Positions 18,081-30,552 of a DNA stretch of 64,000 nucleotides are shown in pieces. A program made the translations under genes and the position numbers. Below the pieces are notes generated by a model. It had not been told where the DNA came from. It saw only the letters and a list, made by a program, of their open reading frames with translations, and ran no database searches. This stretch comes from Alloalcanivorax xenomutans (GTDB taxonomy: Bacteria; Pseudomonadota; Gammaproteobacteria; Pseudomonadales; Alcanivoracaceae). The first letter of the stretch is position 1. Each line of letters opens with the position of its first letter. The stretch lies in NCBI RefSeq assembly GCF_900217905.1, contig NZ_OBMO01000021.1, positions 1-64,000 on the forward strand, written 5' to 3'.

Positions 18081-18611
18081 TTATCCGTCGCCTCCCTTGC
18101 TCAACCGGAATGGCGCGCTGCCGTTTTCGTTATTGGCTTCCACCAGTCTGATCAACTGCAACATGAAGACATCACGCTGATCTTTCGGGATGGCTTCGAT
18201 GGTGCGATCGTGAGCCCGTTGCACGGCGGGCTCCATCTTTTTCAGTAAATAAACCCCTTTGCGGCTCAGCTTGACCAGTTTGAAGCGCCGGTCCTCGTCG
18301 CTCTGCCGGCGTTTAAGCAAACCCCGGGCTTCCAAGCGGGGGATCACCTCGGCCACGCTGGTGCGTTCCAGGCCGATCTCATGAGCCAGGCTGTTCTGGT
18401 CCATCTCTCCGTGGGTGCTTAACGTGGTCATCAGACTGTACTGAACCGGCGTGATGTTGTGCTCCCGGGTTTCATCCAGAAACAGTCCGCAGTGGATCTG
18501 GTGCAAACGACGAATAAGAAAACCCGGACGGCCAAGCAGGGCGGATCGTTCGACCGCATTGGCCAGTTGAGCGGCGGCCGCTTTCCTGGATGTCTTAGAG
18601 GAATTGCCCAT
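18081..18611 (-). CDS. MarR family transcriptional regulator
   Basis: 176 residues. MarR proteins are dimeric winged-helix repressors that release DNA on binding small, often aromatic ligands. The winged helix spans about residues 50-125: TPVQYSLMTTLSTHGEMDQN, SLAHEIGLERTSVAEVIPRL, then the wing RRQSDEDRRFKLVKLSRKG. A 30-residue extension precedes the domain. It is divergent from the Rieske oxygenase operon across 364 bases, the usual position for a local repressor. I infer that it controls the catabolic island. The Shine-Dalgarno site before ATG 18611 is poor. Confidence 0.9.
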   Translation of the reverse strand: MGNSSKTSRKAAAAQLANAVERSALLGRPGFLIRRLHQIHCGLFLDETREHNITPVQYSLMTTLSTHGEMDQNSLAHEIGLERTSVAEVIPRLEARGLLKRRQSDEDRRFKLVKLSRKGVYLLKKMEPAVQRAHDRTIEAIPKDQRDVFMLQLIRLVEANNENGSAPFRLSKGGDG

Positions 18612-18750
18612 AAAAAATGTGGAGAAATATCTGGTGAGAATAAGAAGAAGTAAAGACCAGCGCCCTTCGGCTTGTCAACCTGGGTTGCGACATGACGGGA
18701 GAACGGGCGAGAGAGCGTGATAATCGTCGTCCTTTCATGCTCAACTAAGA

Positions 18751-18762
18751 GGCATACCACAT
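18751..18762 (+). promoter_or_regulatory. Shared operator-like motif GGYATACCACAT, copy 1
   Basis: GGCATACCACAT. Three other copies lie at 26328, 26406 (opposite strand) and 26553, all in the transporter/amidohydrolase intergenic region. The core approaches the palindrome TGGTATACCA, a shape typical of dimeric MarR or GntR repressors. Confidence 0.55.
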
Positions 18763-18915
18763 AAAGATGCCTTGCCCAATGGCACGCTTTACCTTCAAAG
18801 CCGCATTTTCATGGCCGCTATATAAACTCGGAATCCTCTAATATAACCACGAAAATCAGCCACTTAAGTCAATGCGGGAAAGGTCTGTAACGGCCAGGCT
18901 GGGCTTGAAAAAGGG

Positions 18916-18931
18916 TGGCATACAACTTGCT
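18916..18931 (+). promoter_or_regulatory. Sigma54-type (RpoN) promoter before the Rieske oxygenase
   Basis: TGGCAT, five bases, TTGCT. It fits the -24/-12 consensus TGGCAC-N5-TTGCW except at one position, with invariant GG and GC at the right spacing. Transcription would begin near 18942, about 34 bases before the ATG. No sigma54 activator gene is in the window. Confidence 0.5.
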
Positions 18932-18975
18932 TTTCAAAGGTATTACTCCGGCCGCTGTAATCGAGGAAGATACCG

Positions 18976-20016
18976 ATGAACTGCAGAGAACAGCTGAACC
19001 AGCAGGACTTTACCCTGGAGCCCGCGTTGTTGAACGACTGGCACGTGGTGGCTGCTTCCGACGAAGTAACGGAAGGTAATTTGATACCCTCCACCCTGTT
19101 CGAGCGCGATCTGGTGATCTGGCGTGATTCAAGTGGCCAGGCTCATGTGTGGGAAGATCTGTGCATCCACCGGGGAGCGCGGCTCTCCAAAGGGTTTATC
19201 GCCAGTGACCGGGTCGTGTGTCCTTACCATGGCTGGAACTACGATGGCACGGCGCAGTGCCGGCTAATCCCCGCTTCCCCGGGGGAGACACCGATGAAAA
19301 AGGCCAAGGCCATCAGCCATCACGTCAAGGAAGCCTATGGCTTCATCTGGACCAGCCTGGGCGAACCGGAGCACGATATACCGGATTTCCCCGAGTGGAA
19401 CGATGACAGCTACAAGAAGGTGGTGTGCGGCCCCTACCGCTTCAAGTCCGGCTATCGGGCGGTGGAGAATTTCATTGATCCCACCCATTTCCCTTTCGTG
19501 CACGCGGGCGTGAACGGCCTGATGGATGATCCGGATCCGATCGGAGCCTATGACGTCTGGGAGGAGAACGGCGGCCTGGCCTCTTCCGAAGTGCAAGTGA
19601 CCCAGCCTTATGGGGATCCGCGTAATGTGCCGGTAACCGCATTCTATGCCTACAAATGCTTGCGGCCGTTGGTGGCCTACTTTAAAAAACGTGTCCTGAT
19701 TACGGACCCGGACCGCGCCCATGAAGGTAATCCCAATGATCGCTTCTGCACTTATCTGACCGCCCAACAAGTGAGCGAGACGGAAAGCATCGTTCGGATT
19801 TGCTGCGCCATGAACTTCAACCCCATGCCGACGGATGATGAAGTGCGTCAACGTCAGGATCTGGTCTATGCCCAGGACAGTGACATTGTCGATACGCAAC
19901 GCCCAGAACGGATTCCCACTGATCTGCGTCAAGAGCTTCACCACCGTACCGATCTGCTCGGTATGAAGTACCGTTCCTGGCTGCAGAAGATGGGAGTTCA
20001 GTATGGCACGGTCTGA
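18976..20016 (+). CDS. Rieske non-haem iron oxygenase, alpha subunit (VanA/PobA-type)
   Basis: 346 residues. This is the terminal oxygenase of a two-component ring-hydroxylating or O/N-demethylating system. The Rieske 2Fe-2S ligands are C63, H65, C82 and H85 (CIH...CPYH); the mononuclear iron motif E164-N-F-I-D168-P-T-H171-x4-H176 is complete. No beta subunit gene is present, as in VanA-type enzymes that act as alpha-only trimers. AGGAAG precedes the ATG. It overlaps the reductase gene by 14 bases, so the two are one operon. The substrate is unknown: aromatic ethers, carboxylates and quaternary amines are all used by relatives. Confidence 0.9.
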   Translation: MNCREQLNQQDFTLEPALLNDWHVVAASDEVTEGNLIPSTLFERDLVIWRDSSGQAHVWEDLCIHRGARLSKGFIASDRVVCPYHGWNYDGTAQCRLIPASPGETPMKKAKAISHHVKEAYGFIWTSLGEPEHDIPDFPEWNDDSYKKVVCGPYRFKSGYRAVENFIDPTHFPFVHAGVNGLMDDPDPIGAYDVWEENGGLASSEVQVTQPYGDPRNVPVTAFYAYKCLRPLVAYFKKRVLITDPDRAHEGNPNDRFCTYLTAQQVSETESIVRICCAMNFNPMPTDDEVRQRQDLVYAQDSDIVDTQRPERIPTDLRQELHHRTDLLGMKYRSWLQKMGVQYGTV

Positions 20017-20983
20017 TACCGGTGTTTTTCAGGATACCGGGACCTTGCCGGTTCGTTTGGACACCATTCGCTATGGTGCGGAAGAAATTATCTTCTATGA
20101 GTTCGAGGCGATTACACCAGCGGCTTTGCCGCCGGTCTCCGCCGGCGCGCATTTGGACATTGGTTTGCCGGGTGGGGTGCTACGTCAATACTCGCTGATA
20201 ACACCGCTGTGTTCGCCGCGGCGCTATGTTATCGCGGTAAAGCGGGAAGAGAACGGCAGGGGCGGCTCTCGCTGGCTGCACGACAGCGCCCGGGTAGGAC
20301 AGGTATTTGATCTGAGCCCGCCTCGCAACCAGTTCGAGATAACGCCGGGTACCTCACCGGTATTGCTGTTGGCGGGGGGGATCGGTATCACCCCAATCTA
20401 CTCTATGTATGAGCATGTCCGCGCAAGCGGTCGGCCGGTACGGCTGCATTACTGGTGCCGCTCAAAAAAACACGGATTGTTTCTGGAAACGCTGCGCGGT
20501 CGCAGCGATGTTACGGTCCATTACGCCGCTTCTCCGGAGGATAGCGCCGGGCAATTTGCCGCTGTGGTCAGGGGCGTGACCAGGCAGACCGAGATCTATT
20601 GCTGCGGCCCTAAGGGGATGCTCGATCACCTGGAGCGGCTGGGAGAGGAGCTGAATGCGCGGCGCCGCATCCATATGGAGCGCTTTCAGGCCGCCCCACT
20701 AGCGGCGGCTTCGAATGATGCGTTCGAGGTGACTTTGGCGCGCTCCGGCGCGCAGGTGCGGGTGGCTCCCGGGCAAACTATCCTGGACGCCCTGCGAGAT
20801 GCCGGCGCCGACGTCATGTATTCCTGTGAACAGGGGCTTTGCGGGGCCTGCGAGGTGAGGGTATTGGAAGGGCGCCCGGATCATCGTGACACGGTATGTT
20901 CGGCGGAAGAGCATGATCGCCGTGGCACCATGATCATCTGCTGCTCTTCAAGCCAGTCGGCCAGTTTGGTGCTGGATATCTGA
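20003..20983 (+). CDS. Phthalate-dioxygenase-reductase-type electron transfer protein (FMN, NAD, 2Fe-2S)
   Basis: 326 residues. It passes electrons from NAD(P)H to the oxygenase. An N-terminal flavin domain (RQYSL near residue 57), a nucleotide-binding domain (GGIGITPIYSM; YCCGPKGML) and a C-terminal plant-type ferredoxin domain with C275, C280, C283 and C313 give the order typical of phthalate dioxygenase reductase and VanB. It overlaps the end of the oxygenase gene by 14 bases, which fits a dedicated partner made in fixed ratio. Confidence 0.92.
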   Translation: MARSDTGVFQDTGTLPVRLDTIRYGAEEIIFYEFEAITPAALPPVSAGAHLDIGLPGGVLRQYSLITPLCSPRRYVIAVKREENGRGGSRWLHDSARVGQVFDLSPPRNQFEITPGTSPVLLLAGGIGITPIYSMYEHVRASGRPVRLHYWCRSKKHGLFLETLRGRSDVTVHYAASPEDSAGQFAAVVRGVTRQTEIYCCGPKGMLDHLERLGEELNARRRIHMERFQAAPLAAASNDAFEVTLARSGAQVRVAPGQTILDALRDAGADVMYSCEQGLCGACEVRVLEGRPDHRDTVCSAEEHDRRGTMIICCSSSQSASLVLDI

Positions 20984-21014
20984 TTCTTCCGTGGATTCTC
21001 CGTCTGATGGTCTT

Positions 21015-21491
21015 TCAGGTACCTGTCGCGAGCAGCTCCGTCAACGTCGTGGTGTGCCTGAAGTGATGTCGCCAAAGCCGAGCACCGAGCGCGCCGGAGG
21101 GATCCAGTGATGAGCCCAGGGTCAGGTCCGTAATCAGAGTCGGGCGCAGCCCCAGATCAAACAGCGCGAAGCCGGCGGCGAGTACGCAGGTTTCGGTCTG
21201 GATGCCGCACACCAAAACCCTTTCCGGGGCCAGTTGGATAAGATGGTGCAGCACCTCGTTGGTAGGACGGTAGCCATGTTTGACGAAGTGCCGGTCGGCC
21301 GCGATCAGACTTCGTTCCTGTTCCGGCGGCCGCCAACCCAATTGCGCCTGAAAGGGTGTGATCGCTTCGTCATGACACTCCACGGTCGCCACGGTCGGCA
21401 TATGGCCGAGCAAACGGTCAATGTCCCGAAGAAGCCAGGCCGGCGGAGAAAACGAAGGTTGTACGTCGACAATCAAAAGAACCTGTCGCAT
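21015..21491 (-). CDS. Isochorismatase-like cysteine hydrolase
   Basis: 158 residues, short for the family (usually 180-220). The catalytic triad is complete: D9 (LIVDVQ), K71 (FVKHGY) and C102 (GIQTETCV). The family includes nicotinamidase, N-carbamoylsarcosine amidase, ureidoacrylate and biuret hydrolases, all of which cleave amide or ureide C-N bonds. It is the last gene of the minus-strand transporter operon, 68 bases after livF, so its substrate is probably related to the imported compound. That link is inferred. Confidence 0.85.
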   Translation of the reverse strand: MRQVLLIVDVQPSFSPPAWLLRDIDRLLGHMPTVATVECHDEAITPFQAQLGWRPPEQERSLIAADRHFVKHGYRPTNEVLHHLIQLAPERVLVCGIQTETCVLAAGFALFDLGLRPTLITDLTLGSSLDPSGALGARLWRHHFRHTTTLTELLATGT

Positions 21492-21559
21492 ACCGTAGTC
21501 TCCAGGTGAATAACGTGGTTCAGTCTAGCCGCTGGTGGCGCGGGCTGACCATGGGAGCC

Positions 21560-22264
21560 TTATCCGCCCAGATAAGCTTTGCGGATATCCGGATTGTCAC
21601 GCATTTCCCTGGCGGTGCCCTGCAATACCACCCGTCCGGTCTCGAGGAGATAGGACCGATCGCACAATTCCAGCGCGGCATAGGCGTTCTGTTCCACCAT
21701 TAGTACGGTGGTGCCGGCAGCGCGGATTTCGGCGGTCAACTCAAAAACCTGCTCGACGAAGTTGGGCGCCAGGCCCAAGGAGGGTTCGTCGAACATAACC
21801 AGTCGCGGACGGGACATCAGCGCCCGTGCGATGGCCAGCATTTGCTGCTCACCGCCGGAAAGGGTGCCCGCGGGTTGTTCGATACGTTCACGCAACCGTG
21901 GGAAACGGTCCAGCATGGACTCAAGGTCATCACGGATACCGGCATGATCGCCGCGGCAGTAAGCCCCCATCTCCAGATTCTCGCGCACGTTCAATTGAGA
22001 GAATACACGACGCCCTTCCGGGCAATGGGCAATACCGTGCTCGATAATGCTCTGTGGCCTGGCGTTGGTAATCGGCTTTCCTTCAAAGGTGATAGTGCCG
22101 GAGACCACGGGTTCCAGGCCGCTGATGGCCCTGAGCGTGCTGGACTTGCCGGCGCCATTGGAGCCGATGAGGGTGACGAACTCACCTTCATTCACTTCCA
22201 GCGATACTTTGTCCACCGCCACGGTGGCGCCATAGTGAACGGTAATATCATCAAGCTTTAGCAC
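21560..22264 (-). CDS. livF: Branched-chain amino acid-type ABC transporter, ATP-binding protein LivF
   Basis: 234 residues, the usual LivF length. Walker A GSNGAGKSS (near residue 34), ABC signature LSGGEQQ, Walker B LVMFDEPSLGL. With LivG it powers a HAAT-family importer that in different bacteria carries branched-chain amino acids, urea, amides or aromatic acids. The start overlaps the end of livG by 14 bases. Confidence 0.93.
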   Translation of the reverse strand: MLKLDDITVHYGATVAVDKVSLEVNEGEFVTLIGSNGAGKSSTLRAISGLEPVVSGTITFEGKPITNARPQSIIEHGIAHCPEGRRVFSQLNVRENLEMGAYCRGDHAGIRDDLESMLDRFPRLRERIEQPAGTLSGGEQQMLAIARALMSRPRLVMFDEPSLGLAPNFVEQVFELTAEIRAAGTTVLMVEQNAYAALELCDRSYLLETGRVVLQGTAREMRDNPDIRKAYLGG

Positions 22265-23054
22265 GTTGCAATCCTGATCCCAGATACGCCCGAATTACCT
22301 CCGGGTCGCTTTGAATGTCGGCGGGGCCGCCGTCGGCAATGCGATGCCCCTGGTTCAACACCACGATGTAATCAGAGATCGACATCACCATGTGCATGTC
22401 ATGCTCCACCAGAAGAATGGTGATGCCGCTGTCGGCTACACGCCGCACCATCTGCTTGAAGTCCTCGGTTTCCGATGGGTTCAAACCCGCGGCGGGTTCA
22501 TCCAGCAATAACAGCTTGGGCCGGGCCGCCAGGGCAATACCGACGCCGAGCAGACGCTGTTCGCCATAGGACAGATTGGCGGCAAGATCATCGGCGCGAT
22601 GCTCCAGTTCCAGAAAACCAAGCATCTCCCGTGTACGTGCCTCCAGCGCCTGCTCTTCTCGCTGGAAGGCGGGCAGCCTGAATATGGCACCGAAGAGTCC
22701 GCTACGACCTTGCATGTGAAAAGCGGTAAGCAGGTTTTCGAAAACGGTGCAGTTACCAAAGATATTGGTCCTCTGGAAACTGCGGACCAAACCCAGTTCG
22801 GCTATCTCATGGGGTTGTTTGCCGGTAATGTCCAGTCCGAGAAAATGCACGGAACCGGCACTGGGGCGCATATAGCCGGAGATAATATTGAACGCCGTGG
22901 TTTTGCCGGCGCCATTGGGGCCGATCAGACTGACGATCCGGCCGGGTTCAACCCGGAGGTCCACGTCGCTGAGAATCTGCAGGCCGGCGATGCGCAGGCT
23001 GATGCCGGACAAGGACAGTAACGTTTCCGGCTGCTCCGCGGCCGATACAGTCAT
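22251..23054 (-). CDS. livG: Branched-chain amino acid-type ABC transporter, ATP-binding protein LivG
   Basis: 267 residues. Walker A GPNGAGKTT, signature LSYGEQR, Walker B LLLLDEPAAGLNP. LivG-type ATPases are slightly longer than LivF, as here. I chose ATG 23054 (MTVSAAEQPE), preceded by AAGGAG and overlapping the livM stop by 4 bases; the open frame continues upstream into livM but without reason to start there. Confidence 0.93.
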   Translation of the reverse strand: MTVSAAEQPETLLSLSGISLRIAGLQILSDVDLRVEPGRIVSLIGPNGAGKTTAFNIISGYMRPSAGSVHFLGLDITGKQPHEIAELGLVRSFQRTNIFGNCTVFENLLTAFHMQGRSGLFGAIFRLPAFQREEQALEARTREMLGFLELEHRADDLAANLSYGEQRLLGVGIALAARPKLLLLDEPAAGLNPSETEDFKQMVRRVADSGITILLVEHDMHMVMSISDYIVVLNQGHRIADGGPADIQSDPEVIRAYLGSGLQRAKA

Positions 23055-24079
23055 GAGCTGGCTCCTTGAGTAGCGGAGGGGCGGCGCACGGAAATCCTGC
23101 CGCGCTTTAATAAGCCACCAAAGGCGGGAACGATGCCTTTGGGCATGAACAGAAGAATCAGGATCATCAAAGCGCCGTAAATCATCCATTGCACTTCCGG
23201 TGCCACCACCCCTCTGAGCATTTCCGGTAAGAGCCCGAAAATAAGACCGCCTACTACCGGACCAGCCAGGGTGCCTTTGCCGCCGGCGATCACCATGATC
23301 ACCATGGTAATGGTGTAGATGAACAGAAAAACGTCCGGGTCAATGATCCGCACGGTATGGGCGTAGAGACCGCCAGCGGCACCGGCGATACCGGCGGAGA
23401 GGACCGAAAAGACGATCAGGCACCGGGTCACCGGGATACCGATGGACTTTGCCAGTACCTCGTTTTCCCGTAACGCGATGGCGGCACGGCCGATGCGGCT
23501 GCGTACCAGATTGGCCACGATCACGTAGGCCAGCACACCGGCGGCCAGTACCAACCAGTACGTCGAGGCTTTGCTGACCAGGCGGACAACGCCTTCGCCG
23601 GGAACCCAGAGGCTCAGGGGTGGAATGGAAACCAGAGCCATGGGGCCTTCGGTCAGATCGACCCAGTTGAGCGCCACCATGCGCATGACCTGAGCAAAAC
23701 TGATGGTGACGATCACGAAGTAGGCACCGCGTACGCGAAAAGCAACCTTGCCCAACAGCCATCCAAACAGTGATGCCATGACGATGCCACCGGCGAAAGC
23801 CACCCATACCGGTTTGGGTGCTACTACCAGAGGCGATGAGAAGCCCAGATCGACGTCGAAGCCCAGGGAGAGCAGCGCACTGGTATAGGCGCCAATGCCA
23901 AAAAAAGCGGCGTGTCCGAGACTGAGCTGGCCAGTGAAGCCGAGCAGCAGGTTAAGACTGATGGCGGCGATGATCATGATTCCCGCGGCCGCTACCACCG
24001 ACAGCAAATAGGGATCGGGCCACAGCACCGGCAGCAAAGCCAGTGCGGCCACAATGACAAGAAAAGACAATCTCCGCAT
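23051..24079 (-). CDS. livM: Branched-chain amino acid-type ABC transporter, permease LivM
   Basis: 342 residues with about ten hydrophobic segments and the LivM core (NLLLGFTGQLSLGHAAFFGIGAY). An inner-membrane permease that pairs with LivH. ATG 24079 lies 2 bases after the livH stop; a TTG at 24085 is a weaker alternative. It overlaps livG by 4 bases. Confidence 0.92.
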   Translation of the reverse strand: MRRLSFLVIVAALALLPVLWPDPYLLSVVAAAGIMIIAAISLNLLLGFTGQLSLGHAAFFGIGAYTSALLSLGFDVDLGFSSPLVVAPKPVWVAFAGGIVMASLFGWLLGKVAFRVRGAYFVIVTISFAQVMRMVALNWVDLTEGPMALVSIPPLSLWVPGEGVVRLVSKASTYWLVLAAGVLAYVIVANLVRSRIGRAAIALRENEVLAKSIGIPVTRCLIVFSVLSAGIAGAAGGLYAHTVRIIDPDVFLFIYTITMVIMVIAGGKGTLAGPVVGGLIFGLLPEMLRGVVAPEVQWMIYGALMILILLFMPKGIVPAFGGLLKRGRISVRRPSATQGASS

Positions 24080-24081
24080 AA

Positions 24082-24954
24082 TCAACCCACCCTTTCCCTG
24101 GCCGCGAACAACCCCTGTGGGCGGGCGATCATAACGGCCAGAATCACCAGGAAACCGATCGCGTCGCGATAGGCTGTGGAAATGTAAGCCGCCCCGAACT
24201 CTTCAATCAGCGCCAGCGCGAAGCCGCCGAGCGCCGCTCCGCGTATGTTGCCGAGACCGCCAAGAATAACGATGGCGAAGGCCTTCAGGCTGGCCAGGTC
24301 GCCCATTGTCGGTGTGACTACGAAAACCGGTGCCAACAGCGCCCCGGTAATGGCCGCCAGTGACGATCCCAGACCGAAGGTGAGTGTGTAAATCCGGCCC
24401 ACGTTGACGCCGACGATACGGGCCGCGTCCTCGTCCTGAAAGGTGGCGCGCATCGCCAGCCCCAACCGGGAACGTTCAATCACCAGATAGAAGGCCAACA
24501 GCAGCACAATGGCCGCGCCAAGAACAAACAATCGTGTTGGTGACAGATAGATGCCGCCGATAATAATGGACTCCTGCGGGAACGGGGTGGGGACTACTTT
24601 GGCGACCCCGCCCCAGGCCAGCAGTTCGGCGTTCTGCATAATGATCATGACCCCAATCATGATCAGCATGACCTCGTCGATGTTCTCCAGACGGCAACGC
24701 CGCAACAGCAGGAACTCAATGCTCGCGCCCAATAGCAAACCCAGGCCTGCCGCGAGGATAAGCGCCACGAAATAATCCATCTGCAACAGCGATACCAGAG
24801 CGTAGGCCACATAGGCACCGAAAGCGTATAACTCGCCATGGGCGAAGTTGACCACTTTCATGATGCCGAAGATAAGCGTGAGCCCGATGCCAAGCAGGGC
24901 ATAGGTGGCACCGAGCACCGTGCCGTTGACGAGGTGCTGGAGGAACTGGTCCAA
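24082..24954 (-). CDS. livH: Branched-chain amino acid-type ABC transporter, permease LivH
   Basis: 290 residues with about eight membrane segments; N-terminal LVNGTVLGATYALLGIGLTL and GIMKVVNFAHGELYAFGAY are LivH hallmarks. The start appears to be TTG (24954), 6 bases after AGGGAG. It comes 56 bases after the substrate-binding protein gene in the same operon. Confidence 0.92.
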   Translation of the reverse strand: MDQFLQHLVNGTVLGATYALLGIGLTLIFGIMKVVNFAHGELYAFGAYVAYALVSLLQMDYFVALILAAGLGLLLGASIEFLLLRRCRLENIDEVMLIMIGVMIIMQNAELLAWGGVAKVVPTPFPQESIIIGGIYLSPTRLFVLGAAIVLLLAFYLVIERSRLGLAMRATFQDEDAARIVGVNVGRIYTLTFGLGSSLAAITGALLAPVFVVTPTMGDLASLKAFAIVILGGLGNIRGAALGGFALALIEEFGAAYISTAYRDAIGFLVILAVMIARPQGLFAARERVG

Positions 24955-25010
24955 AATAATCTCCCTGACTCACATCCACCTTTCATTGCGCAAAGGGGAT
25001 AAGGGTGCCG

Positions 25011-26159
25011 TTACAGTGCTGAAACTTCGCCGTCTTGCAACTGGATGATGTAGATATTGGGTGTGTTCTGGCCGCTTTCCCGGCCTTCAGGGCCTTCCTT
25101 GTGAAAGGCGATGTCGCCATTCACACCGGCCAGCTTGACCTTCCAAAGCGCATCGCGGATCGCTTCCGGTTCGGCTTTTCCGGCCACGCGAATTGCTTCC
25201 GCGATGGTAAGAATGGCGTCATAGCCGCGAAAGCCTTCGGTCAGACCCGGGAACGGATAGCCTTTTGCTTCCCAGGCATCCATGTAAGTCCTGGCGATAT
25301 CCGGATGAATGGATTGATCCGCGGTCCAGGGTGAGAAAAACAACAGGTGCGTGCTGACGTATCCCTTGGGTCCCGGATTTTTCACCAGGGGTTCGGGAAA
25401 CGACCCACCAGTGGTGACCAGCCGTTGTTTTATGCCTTGCTCGGCTGCCTGGCGAATCGCCAAAGTTAGCTGTTCCACACCTGATGTAACGATAATGGTG
25501 TCACTGCCGCTGTTTTTGAGGGCAGCCAATTGCGCGGATAAATCAGTGGCATCCGGAGCGATGATTTCGGAACGGCCTACTTCAATCCCCTTGCTTTCCA
25601 GCACCTCCTTGAAGGCGCCGGCCGCGCCCAGTCCCCAGTCGTTGTTCACCGACAGGAAATCCACCTTCTTGATAGCAGGAGCGAACGAGGAGAGCTGTTT
25701 GGCGAACGCCTGGGCTTCCATCATCGAAGTCGGGCTGATACGGAAAACCCAGGGATTACCGGAAGTGGTAACCTTGGATGAAGAAGCGGTCTCCACCACC
25801 ATGGGAACGCCGTACTCCTCCAGCTTCGGCATTGTCGCCAGGGTGAAGGTGGAACCCCAGGCCCCCATCATGACCGGCACTTTATCGCGCAGGATCAGTT
25901 TCTCCGCGGTGTTGACCGCCTCCCTCGGGTTGGACTTGTTGTCCTCGATAATCAGCTCCAGAGGTTTGCCCAGTACACCACCTTTACCGTTGATGTGCTC
26001 CACGGCCAGACGTGCGCCGTTGGTGACGTAGGTACCGGAAGCGGCCACGGATCCGGTTAACGGCTGTGAAACCCCGATCCTGATGGTGTCGTCGGCCTGC
26101 GCCTGAGATGCCAGTAATGCTCCCCCGAGCAGCATCGCATACAGCGGTTTGATCAACAT
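25011..26159 (-). CDS. Branched-chain amino acid-type ABC transporter, periplasmic substrate-binding protein
   Basis: 382 residues. A Sec signal peptide (residues 1-23, cut after ASQAQA) is followed by the Peripla_BP_6 fold (DDTIRIGVSQPLTGSVAASG; GKPLELIIEDNKSNP). It catches the ligand for LivHMGF. I chose ATG 26159, 6 bases after GGAG, since it puts the signal peptide at the N-terminus; 26216 would add 19 residues before it. Its distance from characterised LivK proteins and its neighbours suggest a ligand other than leucine, perhaps an amide or ureide. First gene of the operon, with operator-like motifs upstream. Confidence 0.92.
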   Translation of the reverse strand: MLIKPLYAMLLGGALLASQAQADDTIRIGVSQPLTGSVAASGTYVTNGARLAVEHINGKGGVLGKPLELIIEDNKSNPREAVNTAEKLILRDKVPVMMGAWGSTFTLATMPKLEEYGVPMVVETASSSKVTTSGNPWVFRISPTSMMEAQAFAKQLSSFAPAIKKVDFLSVNNDWGLGAAGAFKEVLESKGIEVGRSEIIAPDATDLSAQLAALKNSGSDTIIVTSGVEQLTLAIRQAAEQGIKQRLVTTGGSFPEPLVKNPGPKGYVSTHLLFFSPWTADQSIHPDIARTYMDAWEAKGYPFPGLTEGFRGYDAILTIAEAIRVAGKAEPEAIRDALWKVKLAGVNGDIAFHKEGPEGRESGQNTPNIYIIQLQDGEVSAL

Positions 26160-26327
26160 AAAGCGCTCCTGAAGTACGATTGGATTTATCACTATGATGA
26201 TGCCGGCCCCAGCCATGGCTGGAATGCTGATAAGGCGGCAGCAAGTCCTGTGCCATCGTCGATTTAAAGCCTATGTTGTGAGCGTAACCTTATGATTTTA
26301 TTTGGTATGTTCTATATGTATAAAAGG

Positions 26328-26339
26328 GGTATACCACAT
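26328..26339 (+). promoter_or_regulatory. Shared operator-like motif, copy 2
   Basis: GGTATACCACAT, about 170 bases upstream of the substrate-binding protein start, in an AT-rich stretch suited to the transporter promoter. Identical to the copy at 26553. Confidence 0.55.
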
Positions 26340-26405
26340 TAATGATGACACGATGAATACCGGCGACGGTTCCGAAAAAGGGCTTGCGCACCACAATGCG
26401 GCAAT

Positions 26406-26417
26406 ATGTGGTATGCC
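26406..26417 (-). promoter_or_regulatory. Shared operator-like motif, copy 3
   Basis: Reads ATGTGGTATGCC on the plus strand, i.e. GGCATACCACAT on the minus strand, identical to copy 1 at 18751. It lies between copies 2 and 4. Confidence 0.5.
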
Positions 26418-26552
26418 AACTATATGATGATAAGAGAATGGCAACGCTGCTTCTTGAAGCGGCGCGCACCGTCGGTGCACAGTCCAGGGTTCGAATTGGT
26501 GCCGGCGCAGATCAAGCCGTCTTGAATGCGCCCTTCATTTTTCCATATAAAT

Positions 26553-26564
26553 GGTATACCACAT
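26553..26564 (+). promoter_or_regulatory. Shared operator-like motif, copy 4
   Basis: GGTATACCACAT, containing the perfect palindrome TGGTATACCA (26552-26561) right after a TATAAA stretch. It lies 127 bases before the amidohydrolase ATG. Confidence 0.55.
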
Positions 26565-26690
26565 AAATATTGAAGAACGTAAACCCATGAATAACAGCAA
26601 GTTAGAGATTCACAAAAAGAATAATGGCTATGGATTGGCATGTGTATTGCTACCTGATCGTCATCAGTAACATTTACCTGGAAGGTCTTC

Positions 26691-27962
26691 ATGCAAGCAT
26701 TACTACTGCACGGCGGTCGTGTGATCGATCCCGCCAACGGCATTGATGAGGTTTGTGACGTTCTTGTGCGCGACGGACGTATCGCCGCTGTTGGCCGGTT
26801 GCAGGGTGGCGATGTACCCGGGGACGTGGAAAGAGTCGACTGTAGCGGCAGGCTGGTACTGCCCGGGTTGATCGATACCCACAGCCATGTCTATCAATAT
26901 GTTACCGGGCGATTTGGATTGAATGCGGATCTTTGCGGTGTGCATTCCGGCGTCACCACTCTGGTCGATCAGGGGGGCGCCAGCTGCATGACACTGCCAG
27001 GCTTTCGCAAGCATGTGATCGAGACTTCCCACAGCCGGGTGTTGTCCTTTATTTCCGCTTATTTGGTGGGAGGGCTGGAAGGCCATTTTTATCCACAACT
27101 GTACCGGCCGGATTGCGCCGACATTGCCGCCACCGTCAAGGCGGCCAAAGCCAACGCGGATGTGGTGAAGGGCATCAAGGCTCACGCTGAACTGGGCGGT
27201 TTTGCCCGTTGGGGAACGGAAGTGATGCAAAAGGCCGCCGCCATCGGCGAGCAGACAGGGCTGCCGGTCTACATTCATTTTGGCCAGCTTTGGCCGGAGC
27301 CTGAAGAGGGCGGCATGGATGTGGACCCGGACTCCATCTTTACTCAGGTGGTGGATCTGCTCAAACCGCGTGATGTGCTGGCGCACCCTTTCAGCCGCCA
27401 CCCCGGCGGGTTCGTTGAGCTGAATGGGGAAGTGCACCCGCTGGTACGGGATGCCATCGAGCGCGGGCTCAAGGTGGATGTGGGGCACGGTTCCCACTTC
27501 AGTTTCAAGATGGCGGAGAAGGTGCTGAGCGCGGGTATCGTGCCGCATACGCTCGGTTCCGATATGCATGGCTATAACACTTCGGTGCCGGCGCCGGCCG
27601 GTACTCCCGAGGAGCATGAGCACCCGGATGAGGAGCACATGTTCAAGGGCACCTCCCGCTTCAGCCTGGTGTCGGCGATGACCAGCATGATCGCATTGGG
27701 CCTGAGTCTGGAGCAGGTGATTCCGATGGTGACAGTGAACGCGGCGCGCATGGTGGGTATGAGTGATGAGATTGGCTCTCTTGGCGTTGGCCGGGTGGCG
27801 GATATCAGTGTGCTGTCCGATGAAAGCGGCCGTTGGTTGATGCGGGATAATGAAGGCACGGAGGTGATTGCCGAACGTATGTTGCAGCCCGTGTTCTGCC
27901 TGCGTGAGGGGCGGCGTTTTGACGCCACGGCGTCGATTCTGCCGATACCGGAGGTGGCTTGA
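26691..27962 (+). CDS. Amidohydrolase/deacetylase family metallohydrolase
   Basis: 423 residues of the amidohydrolase superfamily (dihydroorotase/deacetylase branch). Metal ligands are visible: H64 and H66 (DTHSH), a candidate carboxylated lysine in VVKGIKAHAE (K160 or K163), H196 (VYIHFG), H232 (LAHPF) and D291 (LGSDMHG). Such enzymes hydrolyse cyclic amides, N-acyl amino acids or imides. The C-terminal GVGRVADISVL strand is typical. GGAAGG precedes the ATG. Its stop codon ends directly before the next ATG, so it is coupled to the DUF1116 gene. The substrate is unknown; a ring-opening or deacylation step is inferred from the family. Confidence 0.88.
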   Translation: MQALLLHGGRVIDPANGIDEVCDVLVRDGRIAAVGRLQGGDVPGDVERVDCSGRLVLPGLIDTHSHVYQYVTGRFGLNADLCGVHSGVTTLVDQGGASCMTLPGFRKHVIETSHSRVLSFISAYLVGGLEGHFYPQLYRPDCADIAATVKAAKANADVVKGIKAHAELGGFARWGTEVMQKAAAIGEQTGLPVYIHFGQLWPEPEEGGMDVDPDSIFTQVVDLLKPRDVLAHPFSRHPGGFVELNGEVHPLVRDAIERGLKVDVGHGSHFSFKMAEKVLSAGIVPHTLGSDMHGYNTSVPAPAGTPEEHEHPDEEHMFKGTSRFSLVSAMTSMIALGLSLEQVIPMVTVNAARMVGMSDEIGSLGVGRVADISVLSDESGRWLMRDNEGTEVIAERMLQPVFCLREGRRFDATASILPIPEVA

Positions 27963-29144
27963 ATGGCATCCGACCCAAGGGCCGGGATGGATGCCGTGGA
28001 GAGCGCCAATCGGGCGGCGCTGACGAAGGTTCGGCTGGTCCGGCCACAATGGTCTGGTGTGGCGGAAGCGCGGCGAGCGTTGCCGTTGCCGGACCGGACC
28101 TTGTTGCACGCCGGCCCGCCATTCGAGGACCCGCGGGACCCCAGCCCGCCGATCCTGTCTTCGGCGGTTCTGTGTTGCCTGTATGAAGGGTGGGCACGAA
28201 ACGAGGAGGAGGCGGAACGATTGATCAGCACGGGCCAGGTGAGAATGCTGCCGGCTCAGTCGTTCTCGGTGGTCACACCGCTTGCCGCGGTGATCTCGCC
28301 ATCGACGGCGTTGGCGGAAATCAGTGACGCCGCGAATCCCGGGCACCGTTGCTGGTCTTTGCTGAGTAGCGGAAGCGGGCCTCAGATCCGCTTCGGCAGC
28401 CGGGATCCGGCGATCCTGGAGCGGTTGTACTGGCGCGACCGGATCCTGGCGCCGGCACTGCGAAAGGGGCTGGCGACCCGGCCGGTCGCGTTACTGCCGT
28501 TGGCCCGTCTGGGGCTTGAAGCGGGTGATGATTTGCATGCCCAAACCAGCCATGCCAATACGGCCTTATGCGCGGCGATGCCATCCACGTTGCCCGTTGA
28601 GGTTGTTGAGTGTTTGGGCAATACACCGCTGTTTTTTCTTACTTTATGGATGGGCGCCTGTCATCTGATGCTGGCCGCCGCCGCCGGGGAAGCCGGCTCC
28701 AGCCTGGTGTTGGCGTTGGCGGGCAATGGCCGCCGGGTGGGGCTTCGAGTGGCCGGAGACCCGGCTCGCTGGCATACCCGCGCCGCGCCGGTGCCCGAGG
28801 GGCCCCGAATATCAGCCTCCGCCGTGCCGGTCAGCCCCATGGTTGGCGACAGCGGCGTGATCGATGCTTTCGGGCTGGGAGCCCAGGCGTGGAGGTGCTG
28901 TTCCGGAGTGGCCGAGGCACTGGCGCCATGGTGGCCAAATCCGGCGGAGGCGTCACCGGACTGGCTGATCGGAGCGCATCCTTTATTCGAGGATTTGCAG
29001 TTGCCGATCGGGCTCGCATGTCATCGGGTCACGGCTGATACGGACCTGCCCAGGGTGGCCATCGCCATGGTGGGCGGCGACGGACGGGCTGGTCTGCTGG
29101 GGCGAGGACTTTGCGTACCACCGGCGTCGCTGTTCTTGGGCTAA
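27963..29144 (+). CDS. Divergent DUF1116 (AllG/YlbE-like) protein
   Basis: 393 residues. I recognise a remote DUF1116 pattern in order: LLHAGPP (near 47), YEGWA, PLAAVISPS, GDDLHAQTSHANTALCAA where the family has GDE-HNRN, VVECLGNTPLFFLTLWMGA, VVGDSGVIDAFGLGA and a C-terminal block ending VPPASLF. DUF1116 proteins include AllG, a subunit of oxamate carbamoyltransferase in allantoin breakdown. Here several normally invariant residues differ (EDPRDPSP replaces the MCGP region), and no AllF (FdrA) or AllH partner is nearby. It follows the amidohydrolase with no gap. The assignment is from memory of the family pattern, so it is moderate. It may be an altered or non-catalytic member. Confidence 0.6.
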   Translation: MASDPRAGMDAVESANRAALTKVRLVRPQWSGVAEARRALPLPDRTLLHAGPPFEDPRDPSPPILSSAVLCCLYEGWARNEEEAERLISTGQVRMLPAQSFSVVTPLAAVISPSTALAEISDAANPGHRCWSLLSSGSGPQIRFGSRDPAILERLYWRDRILAPALRKGLATRPVALLPLARLGLEAGDDLHAQTSHANTALCAAMPSTLPVEVVECLGNTPLFFLTLWMGACHLMLAAAAGEAGSSLVLALAGNGRRVGLRVAGDPARWHTRAAPVPEGPRISASAVPVSPMVGDSGVIDAFGLGAQAWRCCSGVAEALAPWWPNPAEASPDWLIGAHPLFEDLQLPIGLACHRVTADTDLPRVAIAMVGGDGRAGLLGRGLCVPPASLFLG

Positions 29145-29217
29145 GAGCCGGTTTCGGCATCCCGCATTTCCCCCTACACTGGACGGTCAGACTTCTTGGA
29201 CCGACAGGCCGGCCAGT

Positions 29218-30552
29218 ATGACGCAAACTCCCGCCCGGGCATGGGCGCTGATCCCGCTACTTTTCTTTCTTGTCGTCTTTCTCGGTAGCGGGCTTTATTT
29301 CAGTGCCGCGGGGGCGGAGTTCGCGTTCTATCAAATCAAGGCGCCGGTGGTGGCGGTTGTCGCCATTGTGTTGTCATTCCTTCTGGCACGGCAGTCCTTC
29401 CATCACAGTGTCGAACGCTTGCTGGTGGGCGTCGGCCATCCCAACATCATTCTCATGTGCCTGGTATTCCTGTTGGCCGGCGCCTTCGCCAGCGTCAGCA
29501 AGAGTATCGGCAGCGTTGATGCCACCGTTCAATTCGGGTTGCAGATCATGCCGGCCAGTTGGGTACTGCCGGCTCTGTTCCTGATCTCCGCTTTTATCGC
29601 TACCGCCATGGGCACTTCCATGGGAACCATCGCCGCCACCGCGCCGATCGCGGTGGGGTTCGCCCAGGCCACCTCGTTGTCGTTGCCCTTGTCCTTGGGA
29701 GCCGTGGTTGGCGGCGCCATGCTGGGCGATAACCTGTCGATGATCTCGGATACCACCATCGCCGCCACTCGCAGTCAGGGCGTCTCGCTCAAGGACAAAT
29801 TCCGGGTGAACGTCTGGATAGCGCTGCCGGCGGCGTTGGCGACGGTGGTGTTGCTGGCGCTGCTGGGGGACGGCGAACACACGGTGCCGTCCGAATCCGT
29901 GTCCTACTGGCGGGTCATGCCTTACCTGCTGGTGTTCGCTCTGGCGCTGTCCGGGATGAACGTATTGGTGGTGCTGGTGATTGGTATCGTCACCGCCGGG
30001 CTCACTGGCGTGATACTGAGTCCGGAATACGGTCTGGTCGACGTCAATGGGGCGATCTACCAGGGCTTCGAATCCATGTTCGAGATCATGTTGTTATCGA
30101 TGCTGATCGGTGGGTTGTCGCAACTGATGAATGATCAGGGTGGCACGCGCTGGCTGATCGAACGTATTCATTCGCTGACCCGCTGGCTGAAGCTGTCCAG
30201 TCAGCGCGCCGGTGAGATAGGTATCGCGCTGCTGGTGGTCACCGCCAATCTGTTTGTCGCCAACAACACGGTATCGATTGTGCTGTGCGGTGAAATGGCC
30301 AAGGAGATCGCCGCGGAATATGGCGTCGATCCGAGGCGCTCGGCCAGCCTGATGGATATCTTTTCCTGCGTGGTGCAAGGGCTGATTCCTTACGGCGCTC
30401 AAGTCCTCCTGGCCTGCTCCATTGCATCACTGTCGCCGTTGTCATTGATCGGCGCCATTCACTATTGCTGGGCGCTGGGGGTGGCGGCTCTGCTGGCGAT
30501 CGCCTTTAACCGGCCGCGTTTGAAAGCGCGCCAGCCGGCGCGATCGATTTAG
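29218..30552 (+). CDS. NhaC family sodium/proton antiporter-like transporter
   Basis: 444 residues with about eleven membrane segments. The stretch GGAMLGDNLSMISDTTIAATRSQG is the NhaC family signature. Relatives exchange Na+ for H+, and some exchange organic acids or amino acids (MleN, TyrP-like members). It starts 73 bases after the DUF1116 gene on the same strand and may carry a pathway substrate or product; this is inferred from position. Its stop overlaps the end of the convergent LysR gene by 4 bases. Confidence 0.85.
   Translation: MTQTPARAWALIPLLFFLVVFLGSGLYFSAAGAEFAFYQIKAPVVAVVAIVLSFLLARQSFHHSVERLLVGVGHPNIILMCLVFLLAGAFASVSKSIGSVDATVQFGLQIMPASWVLPALFLISAFIATAMGTSMGTIAATAPIAVGFAQATSLSLPLSLGAVVGGAMLGDNLSMISDTTIAATRSQGVSLKDKFRVNVWIALPAALATVVLLALLGDGEHTVPSESVSYWRVMPYLLVFALALSGMNVLVVLVIGIVTAGLTGVILSPEYGLVDVNGAIYQGFESMFEIMLLSMLIGGLSQLMNDQGGTRWLIERIHSLTRWLKLSSQRAGEIGIALLVVTANLFVANNTVSIVLCGEMAKEIAAEYGVDPRRSASLMDIFSCVVQGLIPYGAQVLLACSIASLSPLSLIGAIHYCWALGVAALLAIAFNRPRLKARQPARSI

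Follow-up and report, generated by a model that had tools for sequence, protein, structure and literature searches.

The window analysed here, a stretch of 64,000 nucleotides of Alloalcanivorax xenomutans (contig NZ_OBMO01000021.1 of assembly GCF_900217905.1, our contig C41 of a 4.35 Mb genome), carries at positions 18081 to 30552 a cluster around an AllG/DUF1116 protein, a COG3964-type amidohydrolase (AHS), a Rieske oxygenase with its reductase and a LIV-type importer. The nearest named genome met is that of Alloalcanivorax balearicus MACL04, with an AllG 92% identical. It is a genuine, co-regulated module whose core is conserved and whose parts belong to known families. An earlier sequence-only reading had proposed it as a new catabolic system; every gene named there is an open frame at the coordinates it gave, and the nine proteins searched against the family library all match the expected families (MarR, Rieske with VanA_C, reductase, Isochorismatase, LIV ATPase, LIV binding protein, amidohydrolase, AllG/DUF1116 and Na_H_antiporter), so that the proposed gene set stands. 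Names given to LivF, LivM and LivH rest on gene position and relatives.

On the minus strand lies the MarR-family regulator (18081-18611; PF01047, 53.3 bits), which relatives' clusters in other genera keep at 63-81% identity. Divergently from it run the Rieske non-haem iron oxygenase (18976-20016, plus strand), with Rieske and VanA_C domains, and its FAD/NAD and 2Fe-2S reductase (20003-20983, plus strand), matched by family, whose start overlaps the oxygenase stop at 20003-20016. Further on the plus strand come AHS (26691-27962), which scores 409.7 bits against the curated NF006689 model for PRK09237/COG3964 amidohydrolases (cut-off 371), and AllG/DUF1116 (27963-29144; PF06545, 190 bits, above cut-off), starting directly after the AHS stop. 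An NhaC-like antiporter of doubtful membership follows (29218-30552, plus strand; PF03553, 79.9 bits). The importer occupies the minus strand between the two units, with a substrate-binding protein (25011-26216; PF13458, 212.8 bits), LivH-type (24082-24954) and LivM-type (23051-24085) permeases, LivG-type (22251-23189; NF008449, 268 bits, under the cut-off of 362) and LivF-type (21560-22264) ATPases and, as its final gene, a short isochorismatase-like hydrolase (21015-21491; PF00857, 37.8 bits, cut-off 27). The gene overlaps reported earlier are real, among the importer genes as well. As the Pfam match of LivG starts at residue 73, and its first 54 residues are 76% identical to the G006 counterpart against 98% for the rest, its true start is probably further in than the open frame suggests.

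Complete active-site motifs, as claimed for the oxygenase, the reductase and both hydrolases, were seen by eye: CxH...CPYH and DPTHFPFVH in the oxygenase, RQYSL, GGIGITP and CEQGLCGAC in the reductase, HSH and SDMHG in AHS, and the triad D9, K71 and C102 in the isochorismatase-like protein, the positions of which were checked. These motifs are presumed to have the roles usual in the four families. The best solved matches of the oxygenase are SxtT/SxtDIOX followed by NdmA; the rest of the cluster is unlike an SxtT/SxtDIOX-type pathway, so we read this match as no more than a likeness within the family. The best solved matches of the binding protein are named branched-chain amino acid binders. 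The predicted structure of AHS was poor (mean pLDDT 62.6) and was not used.

The cluster is predicted to be a MarR-controlled module with four boxes: one in the divergent MarR/Rieske promoter (18747-18762, 13/16 to the palindromic consensus, including one exact GGYATACCACAT) and three before AHS and the importer (26324-26339, 26406-26421 and 26549-26564), each matching motif and consensus. Exact copies of GGYATACCACAT number five in the whole genome, and four of them lie in the cluster, within its two divergent promoters (18751, 26328, 26406 and 26553); the reversed control has one genome match. The fifth, at C44:83111, lies by eye in or just before an AraC-like frame and was taken as chance. 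With up to two mismatches, the window holds seven matches against 2.04 +/- 1.21 in 100 shuffles, the largest of which reached five (0/100 reach seven). The shared DNA motif that had been claimed is therefore above chance by the shuffles, the genome count and the reversed control.

A survey of 28 chosen loci (the window, L010, L011, 22 of the 31 AllG loci introduced below, L046, L049 and L067), excluding close copies of the window and any locus truncated ahead of AHS or MarR, extends this to other genera. Sites matching at least 12 of 16 positions of ATGTGGTATACCACAT, a consensus derived from the window, number 38 in the 28,759 bases upstream of MarR, AHS, importer or Rieske genes, four of them contributed by the window itself, against 5 in 566,641 other bases. 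Such sites are present in 19 of the 28 loci; none was found in L020, L022, L024, L025, L028, L033, L038, L049 and L067. The reversed consensus gave 0 sites inside these promoters and 1 outside, and eight shuffled palindromes gave 0-5 inside and 1-26 outside; at a stricter 13/16 threshold, 13 sites are inside and 1 outside, in 9/28 loci. A strictly symmetrical core is less specific: it has three places in the window's own genome (G000), one in the cluster, against two for its control, and in relatives five places in G006 (three in the cluster), three in G007 (one) and two in G012 (none), while the genes adjoining four places outside the clusters look unrelated by eye. The motif counts, together with related boxes before matching genes in other genera, support the single regulon that had been suggested.

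AllG occurs in 5/94 genomes searched, all among the 13 of the genus. The module is rare: in a sample of 369 genomes from the class that included the window's own, one has the oxygenase at E <= 1e-90 and two have AHS at E <= 1e-130. Within the genus, G006 and G007 keep the same gene order, and G012 and G003 have MarR, AHS (63-65%) and a distant AllG (33-36%) with a short-chain dehydrogenase/reductase (SDR), an IPNS-like 2-oxoglutarate (2OG) oxygenase and an NMT1-type importer instead. Scanning a genome collection with peptides of this AllG, which biases the sample to near relatives, yielded 31 AllG loci (L012-L042). MarR, AHS and AllG recur together in Pseudomonas, Amphritea, Paraburkholderia, Cupriavidus and Azospirillum; AHS, whole or partial, is present in 26/31 loci, the stretch ends early in L021, L032, L034 and L037, and the gene is deleted in L040. 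The homologues are thus not scattered and unlinked, as far as the core is concerned, and the linkage of amidohydrolase, DUF1116, MarR, oxidising enzyme and transporter holds in other genera. What recurs is smaller than the set first described as one system: the core is MarR-AHS-AllG, joined by an oxidising enzyme and a transporter, the full set is peculiar to the genus, the Rieske form accounts for only 4/31 loci and the importer type varies among related clusters (21/31 have an amino-acid-type binding protein).

NhaC was not found in the stretches of other genera and lies within the stretch in only two of the 31 loci, L012 and L040. The latter, from Alcanivorax sp. 24, has lost the segment from inside MarR to inside AllG and retains NhaC and both flanks: window positions 18546-28934 and 18219-18435 have no match there, and remnants of MarR and of the end of AllG abut at about 9741-10204 of L040. 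The cluster can therefore be lost as a block without NhaC, which weakens the earlier inclusion of this gene; it is probably a bystander. The isochorismatase-like gene was not found in the clusters of other genera and is confined to the window's close relatives, so its place in the core is weakened too.

The identity of the oxidising enzyme differs among the loci. A molybdenum (Mo) hydroxylase large subunit, 76-100% identical to that of L017, is present in 24/31 AllG loci (L036 has a distant one at 34%), and a Rieske relative at 79-99% in L012, L013, L015 and L016; no locus has both (0/31, with L037 cut and L040 deleted). Two loci with different hydroxylases, L042 (Mo) and L015 (Rieske), are otherwise alike in importer type, MarR, AHS, AllG with an HpxZ domain, amidase and HpxW-like gene. 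In both L015 and L016, one strand carries AHS, AllG, amidase and HpxW-like gene followed by the Rieske pair. In a phylogeny of 31 AHS proteins (from the window and loci of several searches, without the partial L031, L035 and L036) the Mo label needs four changes, at least three of them forced by well-supported branches, so the switch was not a single event. The Rieske pair is accordingly best described, from gene content and phylogeny, as one of two predicted interchangeable hydroxylases in the module. The Mo form also turned up in Azospirillum, Pacificitalea, Caballeronia, Paraburkholderia largidicola and one distantly related genome of the class.

Two observations stand beside this. In L023, a frame start after LivF (20758-21170) resembles by eye XdhC, a maturation factor of molybdenum hydroxylases. 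On plasmid pmega_2 of Rhodococcus ruber (L044), a DUF1116 gene has nitrilase-type genes and two Rieske/reductase pairs nearby; the oxygenase of the second pair is 53% identical to that of the window.

AllG is single-copy in its own genome. Its predicted model is good and matches 3clq with a TM-score of 0.88-0.90 by query length; 3clq, of its own family, is the only match at E <= 0.001, so the fold gives no hint of mechanism. The residues common to E. coli AllG and 20 others, including H49, E75, D189, H192, N255, D296 and S297, are conserved in all 21 sequences. As modelled, the protein is thus AllG-like in sequence and fold, and perhaps also in what it binds. AllH (PF11392) was found in 0/13 genus genomes, with a positive E. 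coli control, and AllF gave matches of only 22-23% over about 175 of 555 residues (24-26 bits) in 12/13, in frames of 304-354 residues that we take, by size, to be SucD. Neither AllF nor AllH was found in the 31 AllG loci at E <= 1e-5. Judged by this gene content, the AllG described here would not be a member of the known three-subunit oxamate carbamoyltransferase, which weakens the earlier suggestion of a working enzyme of that kind. Separately, a plasmid-borne allFGH-like set was noticed on E. coli conjugative plasmids (L078 and L075), with fdrA, DUF1116, carbamate kinase and cytosine permease in a row, to which L078 adds DUF2877 and an annotated cysteine hydrolase.

A link to oxalurate emerges from the neighbours of AllG in relatives. 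HpxZ occurs in 18/31 AllG loci, in one open frame with AllG in six (L013, L014, L015, L016, L023 and L042; for example L042:9977-11554 and L015:9932-11491) and as a separate gene in 12. Pseudomonas sp. JUb42 is one carrier of the AllG-HpxZ fusion. A Pfam run on L042 and L015 identified the C-terminal domain of these AllG frames as AtzH/HpxZ-like (PF11533); in L017 this domain is the gene next to AllG, and Azospirillum has a separate HpxZ close by. All three separate proteins tested (L017, Azospirillum and the own genome) passed the NCBIfam model 'oxalurate catabolism protein HpxZ', and we know of no assay of the reaction of HpxZ itself. An amidase is present in 19/31 AllG loci, closest to 6c62, which is named biuret hydrolase and which we take to be AtzE, and a GGT-like (HpxW-like) protein in 11/31 at 68% or more. 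The best solved match of the HpxW-like protein of L042 is 5hft, presumably Klebsiella HpxW, at 373 and 287 bits for its two chains, the next being at 279 bits. For HpxW as an oxamate amidohydrolase, the available part of PMC5270733 cites Hicks and Ealick 2016. These HpxZ, HpxW-like and AtzE-like neighbours support the earlier view of a nitrogen-containing small molecule as the likely substrate.

The genome of the window itself has such genes together on contig C3: HpxZ, an HpxW-like protein (57-58% to its L042 counterpart) and an amidase that belongs to the same NCBIfam family are neighbours, and a Rieske paralogue and an OHCU decarboxylase lie within about 23 kb. The wider island, at about 53-92 kb of C3 (L056 and L074), has the OHCU decarboxylase (by family search), Rieske paralogues, a creatininase-family protein and these three genes; further purine-type genes and NMT1-like binding proteins were recognised there by eye only. 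The same island in other species of the genus has 2OG oxygenases 35-38% like that of L010.

Taking these findings together, we propose a MarR-controlled catabolic module for a small N-heterocycle, in which hydroxylation is followed by AHS opening a cyclic ureide and by entry of the ureido acid into an oxalurate/oxamate-type route; we would give this reading a probability of about 0.45. The LIV-type importer would take up the compound. Since Mo-hydroxylase and Rieske enzyme replace each other, hydroxylation of a C-H next to a ring nitrogen is suggested, and the Rieske oxygenase with its reductase would insert oxygen at that carbon, as the Mo-hydroxylase may do in most relatives. AHS, predicted to open a cyclic ureide or amide, would hydrolyse the resulting hydantoin- or parabanate-like ureide or imide to oxalurate or a near relative. 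The open ureido acid could then pass through oxamate to oxalate and ammonia by AllG with HpxZ, the AtzE-like amidase and HpxW; in the own genome the last enzymes would be supplied by the C3 island, perhaps aided by the local isochorismatase-like hydrolase. Binding of substrate or product would release MarR from its boxes.

Parabanate has some precedent. It is a singlet-oxygen product of urate that hydrolyses to oxalurate, as stated in the available part of PMC5703782; a paper of 1965, cited by title in PMC11326118, reports that it induces oxamate transcarbamylase in a Streptococcus, and in the available part of PMC5491218 a Burkholderia cenocepacia ntrC mutant is impaired in its use. These reports make the proposal plausible and do not identify the substrate.

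Several findings weigh against the proposal. HpxW, HpxY and HpxZ were not found at positions 10001-40000 of the window at E <= 1e-6, and the oxalurate link rests on relatives and on the unlinked island. HpxW-like proteins at 57-60% occur in 9/13 genus genomes, 5/5 with AllG and also 4/8 without it, so the association is helpful and not tight. With no AllH and only a weak, partial AllF match, the known reaction of AllG cannot be assumed. In Geminicoccaceae and Methylobacterium (plasmids L080 and L081), AllG was not found in the stretches; AHS stands there with a Mo-hydroxylase, a LIV importer and, where AllG would be, an alpha/beta hydrolase. This replacement in two lineages may hint that the step of AllG is hydrolytic. 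The stretches of L010 and L011 lack both hydroxylases and carry a 2OG oxygenase and an SDR instead; as L023 carries a Mo-hydroxylase plus the 2OG/SDR genes, the 2OG enzyme is not simply a third alternative. Finally, COG3964 enzymes are not known to have activities other than those of esterases or deacylases.

A broader form of the proposal is tentative and, on balance, doubtful: a widespread undescribed route for cyclic ureides of the hydantoin, imidazolone or parabanate type, in which AllG, without AllF and AllH and coupled or fused to HpxZ, would serve a hydrolytic processing of oxalurate, with the first hydroxylation by an interchangeable Mo-hydroxylase or Rieske enzyme.

Alternatively, the cluster may be a second purine pathway, in which the Rieske pair would act like HpxDE on a purine or methylpurine and AHS would open the purine-derived ring, upstream of the ordinary purine genes. 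An oxygenase paralogue (38-41% identical over only about 180-200 residues; 39% over residues 13-202) lies beside the OHCU decarboxylase, another Rieske paralogue being 27% identical over 328 residues, and NdmA, a methylxanthine demethylase, is among the best solved matches of the oxygenase. The NMT1-type importer and IPNS-like oxygenase of L010 and L011 are gene kinds tied to purine oxidation in the available part of a riboswitch paper (PMC7373994). However, neither OHCU decarboxylase nor a PuuE-like gene was found in the window or the 31 loci at E <= 1e-5 (other urate enzymes were not sought), the NMT1-motif (xanthine) riboswitch was not found at its gathering score in 11 sources (the window, L010, L011, L036, L056, L057, L059, L023, L013, L015 and L016), and 21/31 loci have an amino-acid-type binding protein; we regard this alternative as unlikely.

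The catalytic record of the AHS family suggests another possibility: AHS would have esterase or deacylase activity, the compound broken down by the cluster would be an N-acyl or amide one, and the HpxZ and HpxW-like proteins of relatives would act on a side product. Its nearest solved structure is 2ogj, presumably an acetyl-mandelate esterase, and the NCBIfam name is amidohydrolase/deacetylase; the N-heterocycle-type hydroxylases, HpxZ and HpxW-like proteins that are often nearby argue in the other direction, and we regard it as quite unlikely. In a third alternative, the substrate would be a heteroaromatic of the pyridine or quinoline type that is hydroxylated and has its ring opened before deamidation, the isochorismatase-like protein serving as a maleamate-type amidase. 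In its favour, quinoline 2-oxidoreductase is the solved structure nearest to the Mo-hydroxylase of L042. Against it, the genes examined included no recognisable ring-cleaving dioxygenase (no dedicated search was made), HpxZ points to oxalurate and the isochorismatase-like gene is confined to close relatives; we regard it as very unlikely.

No description of this gene combination was met among the literature matches listed, most subscription journals lying outside the search, and nothing bearing on the cluster was among those listed for homarine/trigonelline, considered as a known system; Hpx terms gave 0 matches in PMC6219798. DUF1116 is mentioned in the available parts of PMC3364942 and PMC12625717, and according to that of PMC11326118 the function of AllG/DUF1116 was assigned in 2024, as one of three subunits. 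With the E. coli AllFGH system described there, the cluster shares the AllG family, its invariant residues and the 3clq fold; it differs in that AllH is without match in the genus, AllF has only the partial match, and neither is in the 31 AllG loci. As compared with Klebsiella hpxWXYZ (PMC3560190, available part), relatives of the cluster link HpxZ, amidase and HpxW-like protein to AllG, whereas the window lacks those genes, its genome has them elsewhere, and AllG and HpxZ are fused in 6/18 HpxZ loci. AllG thus recurs without AllF and AllH, beside or fused to HpxZ, and the defined box, the importer and the fusion open both proteins to direct assay. If the substrate is a cyclic ureide, an added nitrogen-recovery route for oxidised purines or imidazoles would follow.

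The Rieske HpxDE pair is described as oxidising hypoxanthine and xanthine (PMC7373994, available part). The cluster resembles such purine hydroxylation in its Rieske oxygenase and reductase, proposed here for an N-heterocycle, and in a paralogue near purine genes; the marks of the HpxD-like class, Rieske and VanA_C domains with a linked reductase, are present. It differs in having MarR in place of a riboswitch and in being joined to AHS and AllG. The Mo form, as in Paraburkholderia xenovorans LB400, Azospirillum brasilense Sp 7 and Pacificitalea, is alike in MarR, AHS, AllG and importer, with a CoxL/M/S-type hydroxylase and a CoxG-like protein in place of the Rieske oxygenase and reductase. 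Repeated exchange of a Mo-hydroxylase for an oxygen-dependent Rieske enzyme, within clusters that are much alike in other respects, would make a clean example of non-homologous replacement; it suggests the same kind of C-H bond as the target of both enzymes.

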